Assembly (NCBI GenBank): GCA_023667845.1
Contig: JAMPIU010000206.1
Location: 124,001-188,000, forward strand
Length of the DNA stretch: 64,000 nt
Reading direction: 5' to 3'
Source: Dehalobacter sp.
Lineage (GTDB): Bacteria > Bacillota > Desulfitobacteriia > Desulfitobacteriales > Syntrophobotulaceae
Part shown: positions 32,045-48,712 of the stretch, piece after piece
Layout: each line of letters begins with the position of its first letter
Position numbering within the stretch: the stretch's first letter is position 1
Made by a program: the position numbers and the translations under genes
The notes under the pieces: model-generated
What the model saw: the letters and a program-made list of their open reading frames with translations, nothing else
What the model was told of the DNA's origin: nothing
Database searches by the model: none

Positions 32045-33877
32045 TTAATTCTGTTCTCCCCCAAAAATAAGTACACCTTTCGGATAATGATCCTGCACCC
32101 AGACCAAACTATTTTTGTCTGTTATCTCCTGGATATGTTTCTTATAGGCATCATACCAGTCCTGATGATTCGTACTGGCATATTTGATATCCTCACTGCC
32201 GAGGATCTTCCGGCATAGGATCTCCATCAGACTTCCCTTTAAGCCTGTCTGTCCGCCTTTTGCAAATTCGGAGAATAGGTAAGGCAGTGCTTTTTCATCC
32301 ATGGCAATAATTGTTTCAACCTCTGTCGGATGCGCATTCAAATAATCATAGGGATTTGAGGAATCCATTGGTGATGTCATGATCTTCTCCAGACAATTTT
32401 TAACCTGATCCGCATTATTGGCTACTATATTCCCATCTGTATATCCATAACTGGCATAGACGCTGTTCAAGCGGTCAATCATTTCCTTCAGCTTTCCGAT
32501 ATTGTCGGAATAAAGACGTACATCTCCTTGCATGACCTGCTCAATCCGGCTCCTTGACTTTGACCAGCTATACCCTTCCAATTGCCCAGTACTGTCGGCA
32601 AATCGAATGTTAATGATTTGGACGTTATCCACCAAAGCAAAGAGCAAAATGGCATTGCGATCAAACACATTTCCGATGATTCCGTCTTCTGCCGTAATCG
32701 CCGAAGCGTTATTAATCCGATAATTAATGGTTATGCCATATGGCTCAGCGGACGTCTGCAACTCGACTTTATCCCGGACAACCCCTTCTGGCAAAGGCAT
32801 CGCGTCAATCAGCGCGATAACCTTGCTCGCATTGCCTACATACGGTGTTTTGTTGGCCAGTAATTTATCGACCGCGTAGCCTGAGTACGTTTTCTGCCCT
32901 GTAGCCGCCCCATTTATCGGGTTTGCTATGAATCCAATCATCAACGCCGCGATCACGATAATTATAGCCGTGCCAACCCAAAAACGAGGCTTTCTGTAAT
33001 GGATCACATTTTTTATTCTCTCTTTAATATTGTTTTCACCGAAAGCTAAAGGGGTAGCCTGCCAGAAGCTGTTCTTCTGAACTGCCAACGCCAGCAGGGA
33101 ATTGGCATAATCCGCTTTGATCCCTTGCCCCTTGTTTCTGATAACCGTTTCATCGCAGGACATTTCCATGTCCTTAACCATCAGCGTAAAGCAGAGCCAC
33201 ATCAACGGATTAAACCAATGGATGATCAGAACCAAAAATGCCGCCGGTTTGATCAGATAATCACTTCTCTGAATATGTACCGTTTCATGCGCCAGTACAT
33301 AGGGTAATTCCCGGGACGAAATGCCTGCAGGCAAATAAATTCTCGGTCTCCTAAAGCCAAAAACAAACGGTGTGCTGATTTGATCTGTCTCATAAATATG
33401 CGATAAAGAAGCATCCAGCAGCGTAGCCGTTTTTATCTTTCCTGCAATTTTAAAATAGGAAAGAATATTCCAAATCAGCAGAACCATAACTCCGGCCATC
33501 CAGACCATACTGCCAAGCAACATCAGCATAGAAAGCGGACTTACACCCATTGCTGCGACCAGAGGCAGCGTACTGCCAACTGAGCTGTTTACTGTACCGT
33601 TTATTGCATAATTTATGTTCTCAAGGCCTGTCATCACCAGCGTCTCAGGCAAAGCATCAGGCTGCATGGCGGGTTTGACAACGTTTAGGAAACTAAAAAC
33701 CGAGGTAAATGAACCAGGACAGGTCAGTCTGAAAAAAACCGCCAGCCACAACAGATAAGAAAAGACTTTCGGTGCCCTTTTCAGAAGCAGTCGAATCAGG
33801 ATCACACCGAGAGCCACATAGGAAGCTGTCATGCTCATATCGACAACAGTGCTGAAAACTGTCATCAAGCTGTTCAT
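32045..33877 (-). CDS. BlaR1/MecR1-family M56 membrane metallopeptidase sensor
   Basis: 610 residues. Four N-terminal membrane helices surround the M56 peptidase domain with the zinc motif YVLAHETVHIQRSDYL (HExxH, about 195-210) and the third ligand region DMEMSCDETVI. A further helix near 305-325 leads to a C-terminal extracytoplasmic domain (about 330-610) with a DUF4825-like start (YSGYAVDKLLANKTPYVGN), not a penicillin-binding sensor domain. So it probably senses something other than a beta-lactam. It overlaps the blaI-like gene by 4 bases; that repressor is the expected partner. Confidence 0.85.
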   Translation of the reverse strand: MNSLMTVFSTVVDMSMTASYVALGVILIRLLLKRAPKVFSYLLWLAVFFRLTCPGSFTSVFSFLNVVKPAMQPDALPETLVMTGLENINYAINGTVNSSVGSTLPLVAAMGVSPLSMLMLLGSMVWMAGVMVLLIWNILSYFKIAGKIKTATLLDASLSHIYETDQISTPFVFGFRRPRIYLPAGISSRELPYVLAHETVHIQRSDYLIKPAAFLVLIIHWFNPLMWLCFTLMVKDMEMSCDETVIRNKGQGIKADYANSLLALAVQKNSFWQATPLAFGENNIKERIKNVIHYRKPRFWVGTAIIIVIAALMIGFIANPINGAATGQKTYSGYAVDKLLANKTPYVGNASKVIALIDAMPLPEGVVRDKVELQTSAEPYGITINYRINNASAITAEDGIIGNVFDRNAILLFALVDNVQIINIRFADSTGQLEGYSWSKSRSRIEQVMQGDVRLYSDNIGKLKEMIDRLNSVYASYGYTDGNIVANNADQVKNCLEKIMTSPMDSSNPYDYLNAHPTEVETIIAMDEKALPYLFSEFAKGGQTGLKGSLMEILCRKILGSEDIKYASTNHQDWYDAYKKHIQEITDKNSLVWVQDHYPKGVLIFGGEQN

Positions 33878-34233
33878 TGTATCGCCTCCTCAATAATTCG
33901 TTTCAGTTCTTCAGCTTCCTTGGCTGTGAGCGTTTTCCGATCGAGGAATGCTGTTAAAAATTGCGGCAGAGAACCGTCAAAGTTTTTTTCGATCAAAGAT
34001 TGGCTTTCATATTTCTGCACTTCTTCCTTTTTAACAAGTGAAGTGACGACTGCATCAGCATTGTCTAAAATGCCCCGTTCACATAGTTTTCGCAAAACCG
34101 TGTAAGTGGTTGACTTCTTCCAGCCCAGTCTTTCCAAAGAAAGCCGTGCAAGCTCAGTCGAATTCACCGGTTCTTTTTCCCAGACGATACTGACAAATCT
34201 ATACTCCGCATCAAATAATTTATAGTTTTCCAT
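33874..34233 (-). CDS. BlaI/MecI-family transcriptional repressor
   Basis: 119 residues from the ATG at 34233, preceded by TTGGGGG; the open frame extends upstream but without a ribosome site. The winged-helix domain reads YRFVSIVWEKEPVNSTELARLSLERLGWKKSTTYTVLRKLCERG, the BlaI signature, followed by the dimerisation tail ending AEELKRIIEEAI. It would repress its own operon until cleaved or released through the M56 partner downstream. Confidence 0.9.
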   Translation of the reverse strand: MENYKLFDAEYRFVSIVWEKEPVNSTELARLSLERLGWKKSTTYTVLRKLCERGILDNADAVVTSLVKKEEVQKYESQSLIEKNFDGSLPQFLTAFLDRKTLTAKEAEELKRIIEEAIQ

Positions 34234-34270
34234 GATACCCCCAAGGTTTATCTTAATAGACCTACTTATA

Positions 34271-34337: not shown

Positions 34338-35816
34338 TCAAAGCCTGATATATTTTGTTGCCACTGATTGCACAAACGCACTGTCATGCTCCACAAACAG
34401 CAGGGTTGGCCGGCATCTTACAATGAGGTCCTCAATCTGCATCCGGGACAGAACGTCAATATAGTTCAGCGGCTCATCCCAGATATACAGATGGGCCTGC
34501 TCGCAGAGACTTTTGGCCAGGAGCACCTTTTTCTTCTGCCCTGCGCTGAACATACGCATATCTTTTTCGAACTGAACGCCTGAGAAATCGAGCTTGTGCA
34601 GAATGGTCAGAAAACGGCTTTCCTCAATCTGGTACTGCTCCGCAAAACTGCGCAGACTGCCCTGCAAGTAAGCGGTATCCTGCGAAATATAGGAGATTCT
34701 TAGATTACTTCCAATATTGACCTTGCCGCTGGAGGCAAGATCTTCTCCAATCAGCAGCTTTAAAACACTGGATTTGCCGCTGCCATTCCTGCCACTTAAG
34801 GCCACCCGCTCTCCTCTCTCTACAGTAAAATGAACATTCTCGCAGACCTTCCTGTCCGCATAATAGATTGCCAGGTCACGTAATTCCACAAGTGTATTTT
34901 TCGGGTGTGAAAGAGGTCTCATACTCAGGCTGTCGGCCAGCTCGATATTTTTTAAAAGTTTTTCTTTCGTCTGGATGTTCTTTTGCTGCCGAGCTTCGAT
35001 CACTTTGGACCGTTTCATCATTTTTGCCGCCTGGTGGCCGATATAGCCTTTATCCGGCTTGATGCCGGAGTTCAGCGTTCCCTTCTTGGTCTTCTCAATT
35101 TTATCCGACCAGCCGGCCGTCCGCCTGGCTGCTGCCGATAATTGTTTGATCTCTTTCTGCAGCCTGTCATTCTCTGCTGTTTCAAACGAATCCGTTCTCT
35201 CTTTATTGACCCACCACGTTGAAAAATTGCCTTTTTGAAGTTCAATATTGGTTTTATTGATGGTCAGGATATGGTCGATACAACGGTCCAGAAAAAACCT
35301 GTCATGCGAAACCAGGATAAAGCCGGTTTTCCTGTTCAGATATTTCCCGACAACGCGCCTGCCCTCTATGTCCAGATGATTGGTCGGTTCATCGATCAAA
35401 AGAAAGTTGTGGGGTTTAATAAACAGTGCCGCAAGCAAAACCTTGGTCTGCTCCCCTTGGCTTAAGGCTGCAAAAGGCAGCTCCAGGACATCCTCTGCAA
35501 CTTCGAGCAATGACAATTCTTTCTGAAGTTCCCAATGTTCAAAAGCAGGGCAGATACTTGCCACTACCTCAATGACATTTTGACTGGGATCGGTAACCTG
35601 AAAAGGAAAATAATCAAAAGACACGGGGGATTCAATTGTTCCAAGGTACTCGTATTTCCCGCACAGCAGCTGCAAAAAGGTCGTTTTACCGCGCCCGTTC
35701 CGGCCAGTGAACCCAAGTTTCCAGTCCGTATCGATCTGAAAAGATACATTTTCAAAAATATTGTCATAACTGCCGTCATAGCAAAACGTTAAATGGTCGA
35801 TGTTAATCAACGCCAT
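34338..35816 (-). CDS. ABC-F family ATPase, probable ribosome-protection antibiotic-resistance factor
   Basis: 492 residues from the ATG at 35816 (GAGGTGATCGCG upstream). Two ABC cassettes: first Walker A GRNGRGKTTFLQL and signature LSQGEQTKVLLAALF; second Walker A GRNGSGKSSVLKL and signature FSAGQKKKVLLAKSL; no membrane segments. The linker between cassettes is long and basic (about 210-300), as in the antibiotic-resistance ABC-F group. MALINIDHLTFCYDGSYDNIFENVSF and TDWKLGFTGRNGRG resemble Lsa/CplR-type proteins that displace lincosamides, pleuromutilins and streptogramin A from the ribosome. An attenuator and leader ORF upstream support drug-induced expression. Confidence 0.85.
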   Translation of the reverse strand: MALINIDHLTFCYDGSYDNIFENVSFQIDTDWKLGFTGRNGRGKTTFLQLLCGKYEYLGTIESPVSFDYFPFQVTDPSQNVIEVVASICPAFEHWELQKELSLLEVAEDVLELPFAALSQGEQTKVLLAALFIKPHNFLLIDEPTNHLDIEGRRVVGKYLNRKTGFILVSHDRFFLDRCIDHILTINKTNIELQKGNFSTWWVNKERTDSFETAENDRLQKEIKQLSAAARRTAGWSDKIEKTKKGTLNSGIKPDKGYIGHQAAKMMKRSKVIEARQQKNIQTKEKLLKNIELADSLSMRPLSHPKNTLVELRDLAIYYADRKVCENVHFTVERGERVALSGRNGSGKSSVLKLLIGEDLASSGKVNIGSNLRISYISQDTAYLQGSLRSFAEQYQIEESRFLTILHKLDFSGVQFEKDMRMFSAGQKKKVLLAKSLCEQAHLYIWDEPLNYIDVLSRMQIEDLIVRCRPTLLFVEHDSAFVQSVATKYIRL

Positions 35817-35835
35817 CGCGATCACCTCACAGTGT

Positions 35836-35873
35836 AAAAATAATAAGGCTGCAAGAAAGTTTATTCTTGCAGC
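35836..35873 (-). terminator. Attenuator terminator in the ABC-F leader
   Basis: Minus-strand RNA: GCTGCAAGAA pairs with TTCTTGCAGC across a 6-base loop, followed by CTTATTATTTTT; it ends 20 bases before the ABC-F start. Its 3' half, AACTTTCTTGC (35851-35861), can instead pair with AGCAAGAAAGTT at 35981-35992 upstream, which would break the terminator. Confidence 0.82.
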
Positions 35874-35989
35874 TTCAAAATATCCTTGAACACAGTTGAT
35901 GTGCAGAAAAAATGTTAACATAATGCACATTCCAAAACGCTGTCGGTCCAATGTGATCTTTGATTACTTTAAAAGATTGTAACTTTCTT

Positions 35990-36095
35990 GCTCCGTGGGC
36001 TTACTGCTCCTTGCCATCCTTGGCACCGCGGCATTAGCCCGTGGGCGTCACAAGGCCAGCAGCACTTGCTGCTTACTCCGTAACGCTCTTTTCAC
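35990..36095. repeat. Intergenic repeat copy C within the ABC-F leader
   Basis: GC-rich block containing TTGCCATCCTTGGCACC, with CGTGGGC..ACTGCT on one side and GGCCAGCAGCACTTGCTGC on the other, colinear with copy B near 18050. It fills the space between attenuator segments at 35981-35992 and 36105-36116. Confidence 0.55.
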
Positions 36096-36102
36096 TTCAC
36101 AT

Positions 36103-36123
36103 TTAGCAAGAAAGTTTGCGCAT
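36103..36123 (-). CDS. Six-codon leader peptide (MRKLSC) of the ABC-F gene
   Basis: ATG CGC AAA CTT TCT TGC TAA on the minus strand, 8 bases after GGAG. The ORF contains AACTTTCTTGCT (36105-36116), exactly complementary to the antiterminator segment at 35981-35992. A ribosome held on this mini-ORF by an antibiotic would free that segment to disrupt the terminator. This matches the general plan of inducible ABC-F and erm leaders. The ORF and complementarities are seen; use as a sensor is inferred. Confidence 0.65.
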   Translation of the reverse strand: MRKLSC

Positions 36124-36198
36124 CTTCCCATCTCCGATCAAGTTTATCTATTAACAAAAATTCCAAATCAACCTATTAATACATTACTTAACCTTAGT

Positions 36199-36207
36199 AT
36201 TATATCA
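36199..36207 (-). promoter_or_regulatory. Extended -10 promoter for the ABC-F leader
   Basis: TGATATAAT on the minus strand: TATAAT preceded by TG and one base, a perfect extended -10 element. No good -35 is visible. It lies 76 bases before the mini-ORF and just beyond the sufB stop. Confidence 0.5.
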
Positions 36208-36227
36208 GATAACCCTATCATTCGATA

Positions 36228-37145
36228 CTAGGCTAGAAAACCCTGCAGAATCATATCTTCAGCTTCTTTTTCCGTGAGGCCAAGCGTCATCAGCTTGATC
36301 AGCTGATCGTTTGCAATCCTGCCGATCGCCGCCTCATGGATCAGCTGAGCATCCGAATGGAAGGCCGAAATTTCCGGAATAGAAGAAACTTTCGCTTGAT
36401 CCATAATAATGGAATCACATTGAATATGTCCGCGGCATTGGGCATAGCCGCGCATATTCAAATGAAAAACTTGAGTGGAATTATCCTGCGCCACGGAACG
36501 GGAAATGATTTGGGCGGCAGCATCTTCTCCTATCAGCTCAACTGTAATATCGGATTCGGCATTCTGGTTGGTGGTAGTCAGCAGTCTTTCCATGACAATC
36601 AGACGCGCGTTCTTGTGCAGGCGCACTTCCGTATCCCTTTTGGTTTGGTCGACACCTCTAATCTGAACCATTTCCAGCTCAGCCACGCCGCCCTCTTCGA
36701 CTTCAATAATCGTCTTCGGATTCAAAATCCTTTCCCCGCTGCCATCGCCTTCGCCGTAGTGTTTTTCCACATACTTCATCTTGGCGCCCTTACGGACAAA
36801 AAATTCGTGAACGCCATCATGCTGGGCTTTCTTGCTTCCCGGGTTATGAATCCCGCAGCCGGCCACAATCAGAACGTCCGAGTCGGCGCCGATTTCAAAT
36901 GTATTGTAAACGAGGTCATCCATCCCTTCAGACAGAATAACCGGAATATGCACGCTTTCTCCTTTGGTTCCGGGTTTCACAATGATATCAATGCCAGGCT
37001 TGTCCTGCTTGGTGATAATATCAATATTTGCAGTCGTATTTCGTCCTGCTTTCTCGCCATTTTTACGGATATTATAGGCTCCATGCGGGATTTCATGCAA
37101 ATCAGCCACTTCAGCCAGAATTTTTTTATCGATCGCATTCAACAT
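36228..37145 (-). CDS. sufB: SufB/SufD-family iron-sulfur cluster scaffold (SMS-type short form)
   Basis: 305 residues, much shorter than classical SufB (about 470) and lacking its N-terminal domain. The beta-helix core and C-terminal motifs are present: VAGCGIHNPGSKKAQHDGVHEFFV, MRGYAQCRGHIQCDSIIMD, SSIPEISAFHSDAQLIHEAAIGRI and LTEKEAEDMILQGFL. It assembles Fe-S clusters with SufC. Only sufC is adjacent; no sufS, sufU or sufD. This two-gene arrangement matches the minimal SMS system described in archaea and anaerobic bacteria. It overlaps sufC by 7 bases. Confidence 0.88.
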   Translation of the reverse strand: MLNAIDKKILAEVADLHEIPHGAYNIRKNGEKAGRNTTANIDIITKQDKPGIDIIVKPGTKGESVHIPVILSEGMDDLVYNTFEIGADSDVLIVAGCGIHNPGSKKAQHDGVHEFFVRKGAKMKYVEKHYGEGDGSGERILNPKTIIEVEEGGVAELEMVQIRGVDQTKRDTEVRLHKNARLIVMERLLTTTNQNAESDITVELIGEDAAAQIISRSVAQDNSTQVFHLNMRGYAQCRGHIQCDSIIMDQAKVSSIPEISAFHSDAQLIHEAAIGRIANDQLIKLMTLGLTEKEAEDMILQGFLA

Positions 37146-44128: not shown

Positions 44129-44168
44129 AAAAAAACTGCGGAACTATAGTTGTTGGAAATATAGTCCC
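44129..44168 (-). terminator. Riboswitch expression-platform terminator upstream of the CDF gene
   Basis: Minus-strand RNA: GGGACTATA pairs with TATAGTTCC (one GU) across an 11-base loop, followed by GCAG and seven T. The 5' arm includes the GGGAC end of the aptamer, so ligand-bound aptamer and terminator exclude each other. Confidence 0.82.
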
Positions 44169-44250
44169 ACAGGGTTTGTCTCCTGCTGCCGTATACCGGC
44201 CCAGCCTTATACACCCAAATCAAATGTTAAGTGTATCGGCCTGATCGATG
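44164..44250 (-). ncRNA. NiCo (czcD-type) riboswitch upstream of the CDF gene
   Basis: Minus-strand sequence has the ordered NiCo landmarks: ATCAGGCC, a stem ATACAC/GTGTAT, GGCTGGGCC, CGGCAGCAGG, and CCTGTGGGAC at the 3' end. The order and spacing match the copy before the P-type ATPase and the known four-way-junction NiCo aptamer; the first motif reads GATCAGG here rather than GAGCAGG. Binding of Ni/Co would prevent the overlapping terminator and turn on the exporter. Confidence 0.82.
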
Positions 44251-44347
44251 CGCAATATTTTTTGATAAATCAAAAACTAGTATATTTGAAAACAACCTCT
44301 ACTGTCAATATCGTTTTGCCTAAAACTTGAGTAGCTCTACCTTAAAT

Positions 44348-48377: not shown

Positions 48378-48415
48378 AAAAATACCTGTAGAACATTTTA
48401 CTGTCCCACAGGTAT
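48378..48415 (-). terminator. Riboswitch expression-platform terminator upstream of the P-type ATPase
   Basis: Minus-strand RNA: ATACCTGT pairs with ACAGGTAT, with an inner GGACA/TGTTC stem, followed by TTTTATAT. Its 5' half is the 3' end of the NiCo aptamer. Confidence 0.82.
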
Positions 48416-48490
48416 ATGTATATCATCACCTGCTGCCCATCGGGCCCAGCCCCATGAACTTGTTTCCAAGTTCATCGCCTGCTCAGTTTG
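48400..48490 (-). ncRNA. NiCo (czcD-type) riboswitch upstream of the P-type ATPase
   Basis: The landmarks appear in order: ACTGAGCAGGC, stem ATGAACTTG/CAAGTTCAT, GGGCTGGGCCC, GGGCAGCAGGT, then ACCTGTGGGACAGT. This agrees closely with the published NiCo aptamer consensus (CUGAGCAGGC ... GGCAGCAG ... CUGUGGGACAG). The overlapping terminator implies a genetic ON switch on Ni/Co binding. Confidence 0.9.
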
Positions 48491-48712
48491 TACTGTAGAT
48501 TGATATGCAGTGCAAAGAGATAGTTGAATTTTACCATATTGTTTTTTTTAAAGCAATATTTTATGAAAATTTTATTTAGACGATTTGATTTAGATATTTT
48601 AAGGCATCCGCTTTTTTAAATGAATAATTAATTGAATTTTAGTGGACATTTAATAAATATCGTATACGATTGAAAAGGGATCAATTTTTAGTATTACGCA
48701 AAGGACATATGA

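Follow-up and report, generated by a model that had tools for sequence, protein, structure and literature searches.

The Lsa-type ABC-F gene found in this Dehalobacter sp. contig is very probably controlled by a ribosome-mediated transcription attenuator, in which a drug would switch the gene on by holding a ribosome on a six-codon mini-ORF, with the start codon as the most likely site. Several ABC-F and erm genes are induced through ribosome stalling on short leaders. The elements of the leader described here were conserved in related species and in other genera, and the alternative pairings of its central segment covaried among dissimilar leaders.

Anatomy of the leader and of the gene it precedes

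The leader is placed on the minus strand of the window, which is the whole stretch of 64,000 nt that was analyzed. In the direction of transcription, its features and the gene that follows are:

36199-36207, minus strand: putative extended –10 promoter element TGATATAAT, read from the sequence and unchanged in three sister species
36132-36135, minus strand: Shine-Dalgarno (SD) sequence GGAG of the mini-ORF, read from the sequence, 8 nt before its ATG
36103-36123, minus strand: mini-ORF (upstream ORF, uORF) MRKLSC*, ATGCGCAAACTTTCTTGCTAA, identical in four species of the genus
36105-36116, minus strand: segment a, AACTTTCTTGCT, contained in the mini-ORF, its TTGC reaching a point 18 nt from the A of the start codon
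35992-36057, minus strand: copy of an interspersed palindromic repeat in the a-b loop, outside the switch, which recurs at 14 other places in the genome
35981-35992, minus strand: segment b, AGCAAGAAAGTT, 112 nt after a; partner of a (switch off) or c (switch on)
35971-35977, minus strand: segment d, ATCTTTT, just after b; pairs with GGGAAGAT in the region of the AUG and ribosome site of the mini-ORF
35848-35873, minus strand: intrinsic terminator hairpin GCTGCAAGAA-TAAACT-TTCTTGCAGC, 10 bp with the loop TAAACT
35851-35861, minus strand: segment c, AACTTTCTTGC, in the terminator loop and 3′ arm
35836-35847, minus strand: U-rich terminator tail, read from the sequence and present also in relatives
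34338-35816, minus strand: gene of an Lsa-family ABC-F ribosome-protection protein of 492 aa, assigned by profile and structure-sequence matches

A preliminary description of this region had pointed out an extended –10 promoter, a mini-ORF with a well-spaced GGAG and three matching segments in alternating orientation. All of them were located, with TGATATAAT at 36207-36199, the ORF MRKLSC at 36123-36103, and the segments at 36116-36105 (a), 35992-35981 (b) and 35861-35851 (c). The placement of a inside the mini-ORF, of b about 110 nt further down (112 nt by coordinates) and of c in the loop and 3′ arm of the terminator was likewise as described, and an independent terminator scan of 35780-36300 returned the hairpin at 35873-35848 as the only terminator-like site. 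A consensus promoter scan did not list TGATATAAT at 36207-36199, because its –35 is weak. A longer overlapping frame from an upstream ATG (MGRCANFL..., about 27 aa) was rejected, as its ATG abuts the GGAG and the frame is not kept in relatives. Sequestration of the SD sequence by the terminator was also considered for the leader, and none was seen. In the 412-nt leader, an 11-mer occurs twice direct and once inverted, which was reproduced in 1 of 3000 dinucleotide-preserving shuffles; given the conservation reported below, a chance origin of the leader elements is untenable.

The ABC-F protein matched NF000167, the model of the Lsa family (ARE3), from end to end (E 1.9e-217, 1-492 of 492) with 723 bits, the curated cut-off being 750. 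With NF000355, which describes ribosome-protection ABC-F proteins in general, it reached 462 bits, above the cut-off of 380. The next best named family was Msr, with 229 bits, and the closest solved structure by sequence was Lsa(A) (PDB 7nhk, E 4.1e-124). These matches point to a gene product that is Lsa-like by a wide margin, though under the curated Lsa cut-off. SufB/SufC-like genes with the same orientation precede the ABC-F gene. Directly downstream, and also in the same direction, there is a pair coding for a BlaI-like repressor and a BlaR1-like sensor (32045-34239, minus strand). Elsewhere in the window, two NiCo (nickel/cobalt) riboswitches were found above Rfam gathering scores (48399-48496 and 44160-44258, minus strand), about 4 kb apart, and the genome carries several reductive-dehalogenase genes.

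Pairing, covariation and distribution of the leaders

In the proposed mechanism, ribosomes would leave the mini-ORF at once when no drug is present; its ribosome site, its AUG and a would pair with b and d, and c, being free, would complete the terminator, with transcription ending before the ABC-F gene. A drug of the pleuromutilin, lincosamide or streptogramin A type would hold a ribosome in place on the mini-ORF, the start codon being the most likely position, with its footprint over a. Segment b, together with d, could then capture c (and the 5′ arm) of the terminator, which would be blocked, and the ABC-F gene would be transcribed.

These pairings were assessed in 88 collected leaders, from which 35 representatives with less than 75% similarity were kept. 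Pairing energies within and across leaders were compared by a permutation test, in which relatedness was reduced, not removed. Since the position of c was set by the terminator and that of b by its match to a, the b:c comparison depends on neither fit, and it revealed that b pairs better with the c of its own leader (–15.8 kcal/mol) than with that of others (–12.1 kcal/mol; z –9.9, 0 of 5000 permutations). The a:b pairing was also stronger within the own leader (–13.7 versus –12.1 kcal/mol, z –6.1), a result favored by the choice of b according to its own a, and the terminator arms (5′ arm with c), likewise chosen by fit, gave z –12.7. The control pairings b:5′ arm (z 0.1) and a:c (z about 0) presented no own-leader preference in the 35 representatives. 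In the same set, the SD region paired better with the d of its own leader (z –4.0), and the d:5′ arm pairing gave a weak signal (z –2.0). At position 4 of b, where A was replaced by G, 8 representatives had a corresponding C in c, the U of a being retained almost always and pairing by wobble, a pattern that should be expected of a segment serving two partners. This covariation in 35 dissimilar leaders supports the earlier proposal that a:b leaves the terminator intact and b:c destroys it.

Minimum-energy folds indicated an off-state helix longer than a:b, in which the ribosome site and AUG of the mini-ORF pair with d. The stalled state was modeled by masking the footprint of a start-codon ribosome (–14 to +15); since the minimum-energy fold alone is not decisive for this state, forced-pair energies were used together with the covariation. 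Masking lowered the median advantage of the terminator over the antiterminator from 14.2 to 1.5 kcal/mol in the 35 leaders, and the forced antiterminator equaled the optimum in 12 of the 35 masked leaders. The terminator was still the stalled-state optimum in most leaders, with a gap of 1.6 kcal/mol in the window. As modeled, the energies would permit the switch, and the antiterminator would need co-transcriptional capture or timing for part of the work. Both the covariation and the constrained-fold energies showed the anti-antiterminator and antiterminator pairings to be mutually exclusive.

The conservation of the three segments, which the preliminary description had named as a check, was verified in sister species and in other genera. 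Three other species of the genus show no change in b, in the complete mini-ORF and its ribosome site, or in the extended –10; one of them has a single substitution in the terminator loop, by which an A-U pair of b:c becomes G-U. Beyond the genus, the mini-ORF occurs as MRNFSC and other variants, and a GGAG/GAGG-type site is found at the equivalent place in nearly all relatives' leaders. A search of GTDB, with each species represented by one genome, for a degenerate 21-mer pattern of the mini-ORF, ATGCGYAMHYWTTCTTGCTAA, gave 43 matches, against about six expected for random base order by our own arithmetic. An Lsa-type ABC-F gene, with 44-85% identity over the available part, was placed 177-490 nt downstream in 38 of them. 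In three others the stored sequence ends before the downstream gene can be judged, and the remaining two (Omnitrophota and Prolixibacteraceae), which had neither ribosome site nor ABC-F gene, are likely chance matches. Bar these two, every match with enough downstream sequence had an Lsa-family ABC-F gene as its target. The hosts included many Desulfosporosinus, as well as Desulfotomaculaceae, Eubacterium, Anaerovorax, Emergencia, Oscillospiraceae and others.

A second sample, independent of the pattern, was gathered by protein similarity and divided into three groups. Among homologues with at least 60% identity, the leader was detected by script in 35 of 39 and by eye in two more (L111 and L113), that is, in at least 37 of 39. 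For L058 the upstream contig is too short for the leader, with the terminator visible, and L112 was the one true absence at this identity. The share of leaders dropped with protein distance, reaching 1 of 10 below 53% identity. No copies of the leader were found in plasmid records and viral contigs, and no Rfam covariance model matched it at gathering score, the only hit at E up to 1 being mir-8186, far below threshold. A search of literature text for the peptides MRNFSC, MRKLSC and MINFSC, with supplementary tables and subscription journals outside its scope, gave unrelated matches only.

Some homologues presented other arrangements. The distant L043, L044, L045 and L046 carry a different leader upstream of the ABC-F gene, with other mini-ORFs (MIR*, MRIR*) and, by eye, similar alternative pairings before a terminator. 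L110, L111, L113 and L117 have a second small ORF of about 26 codons (M...THD.L.IES...G..Y.E) between the terminator and the ABC-F gene, followed by a possible hairpin. This ORF, which may be another regulatory layer, was kept in L112, where the attenuator was lost.

Signals to which the leader may respond

Measured from the A of the start codon, TTGC ended at 18 nt in 87 of the 88 leaders, in a search that allowed a range. Because the toeprint of a start-codon ribosome lies 16 nt downstream (PMC9226507) and a ends at 18 nt, a ribosome held at the AUG would cover most of a. The coding content of the mini-ORF was far less constant: codons 2-4 vary, with R, I, Y, S, N, K, E or L at codon 2, and the stop is TAA, TAG, TGA or shifted. 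In L052 (MK*), L141 (MR*) and L148 (MR*), Ser-Cys is missing and segment a is kept outside the frame; in L148, moreover, a and b changed together. This combination of variable codons and stops with the persistence of a and of its spacing favors start-codon stalling over peptide-specific arrest as the probable signal. Regarding the drug class, ribosome stalling at the start codons of uORFs is caused by lincosamide, streptogramin A and pleuromutilin drugs (PMC12421871), and Lsa proteins belong to the group that protects against these same drugs, which stop early elongation (PMC10201436).

It is improbable that the same attenuator depends on an arrest determined by the nascent peptide, at the end of MR[N/K/T]FSC, in a macrolide- or phenicol-like manner, as in erm leaders. 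Erm-type leaders work by such an arrest, and MRNFSC was indeed the commonest peptide (45 of 88), with Arg frequent at codon 2; however, the leaders do not share a constant nascent peptide where an arrest of the erm type would occur. The freely varying codons 2-4, the shifting stops and the MK*/MR* leaders that keep the RNA segment argue against it, as does the early-elongation spectrum of the Lsa group. Peptide independence may nevertheless be incomplete, considering the common Arg at codon 2 and the finding that induction of vmlR is influenced by the sequence of its mini-ORF (PMC10201436).

Even less probable is an amino acid attenuator sensing cysteine (or serine) starvation through the Ser-Cys codons, in the way proposed for a cysteine-codon attenuator upstream of cysS (PMC8632094). 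Nearly all leaders have TCT TGC within the mini-ORF, and the SufB/SufC-like neighbors would suit such a role, but there is a single Cys codon, which the MK*/MR* members lack, the target is always an ABC-F gene of the antibiotic-resistance type, and RNA pairing fully accounts for TTCTTGC.

That there is no switch at all, the leader being a plain terminator with a chance inverted repeat or with the arms of an inserted mobile repeat, is the least credible explanation, for although part of the a-b region is an interspersed repeat, the sister species L011 has retained a, b and c but has no insert, other genera are also without it, and the b:c covariation contradicts it.

About 46 nt of the a-b spacing of the window correspond to the core of this repeat, which is cleanly missing in L011, so that the 110-nt distance is not functional in itself; in most other leaders, b is found about 40-75 nt past the mini-ORF. 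The repeat is a passenger in the hairpin loop, and L011 rules it out as a component of the switch. It was noted in the window and at L002-L008 and is present within the leader loop in three of the four species of the genus; its longer copies, with the inverted ends GTCTGCGTGCCAC/GTGGCACGCAGAC, resemble a small non-autonomous mobile element.

The proposed drug-responsive attenuator is retained, with two refinements of the preliminary reading: the off helix extends over the SD sequence and AUG of the mini-ORF to d, and the stall most likely takes place at the start codon, largely irrespective of the peptide. We lean slightly towards a broader proposal, namely that the leaders form a single old attenuator class outside Rfam, distributed over several Bacillota lineages and dedicated to Lsa-type genes, which senses only the AUG-held ribosome through a fixed 18-nt ruler, with any peptide. 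The 88 covarying leaders make the RNA logic of drug-induced ABC-F expression readable from evolution, and the naturally occurring MK*, MR* and altered-stop leaders allow the contribution of the peptide to be told apart from that of RNA pairing. They also imply the prediction that many anaerobes from soil, sediment and gut, including the Dehalobacter studied here, carry an Lsa-type resistance that is intrinsic, inducible and, as long as no drug is present, silent.

Relation to known attenuators

The proposed mechanism resembles those of the vmlR and cplR attenuators, sharing the uORF, the terminator and the mutually exclusive pairings of ABC-F attenuators. The vmlR leader of Bacillus subtilis (uORF MIN) has in common with it the ABC-F target, a short uORF in an anti-antiterminator hairpin and the competition of antiterminator and terminator (PMC9226507). 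Start-codon stalling, which lincomycin and retapamulin cause in vmlR (PMC9226507), is what we infer from sequence for the present leaders. In contrast, vmlR has another uORF and sequence, an extra SD-sequestering hairpin and a NusG pause site, whereas most of the present leaders have 19-29 nt between the end of the terminator 3′ arm and the gene, and an anti-SD hairpin was not observed. The vmlR2 leader (uORF MK[L/Q]; PMC10201436) is a further relative of the vmlR-type scheme, with a mini-ORF different from the one described here. Similarly, the cplR leader of Clostridioides difficile (uORF MR[I/M]) shares a clostridial ABC-F gene, a uORF starting with Met-Arg, a uORF-sequestering hairpin and a terminator (PMC10201436), but its terminator also hides the SD sequence of the gene, its uORF has three codons, and CplR is an ARE1 and not an Lsa protein. 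The lsaA gene of Enterococcus faecalis shares the Lsa-family target and a predicted short uORF (PMC10201436); this uORF is MAGN, and the comparison is made at the level of the uORF, not of the RNA.

The leaders of vgaL/lmo0919, vgaA, msrD, lmrC, are5sc and tiaA, as well as uORFC-6-1 before hflX, are likewise uORF attenuators that respond, or are proposed to respond, to antibiotics, and they act on genes for ribosome protection or rescue (PMC12421871, PMC8632094); they differ in their uORFs, targets and hosts, and some depend on particular peptide motifs, such as Arg-Leu-Arg in uORFC-6-1. Compared with all of these, the leader family appears to be new within a known attenuator scheme, being absent from Rfam, having a mini-ORF and sequence of its own, and being unusually widespread.
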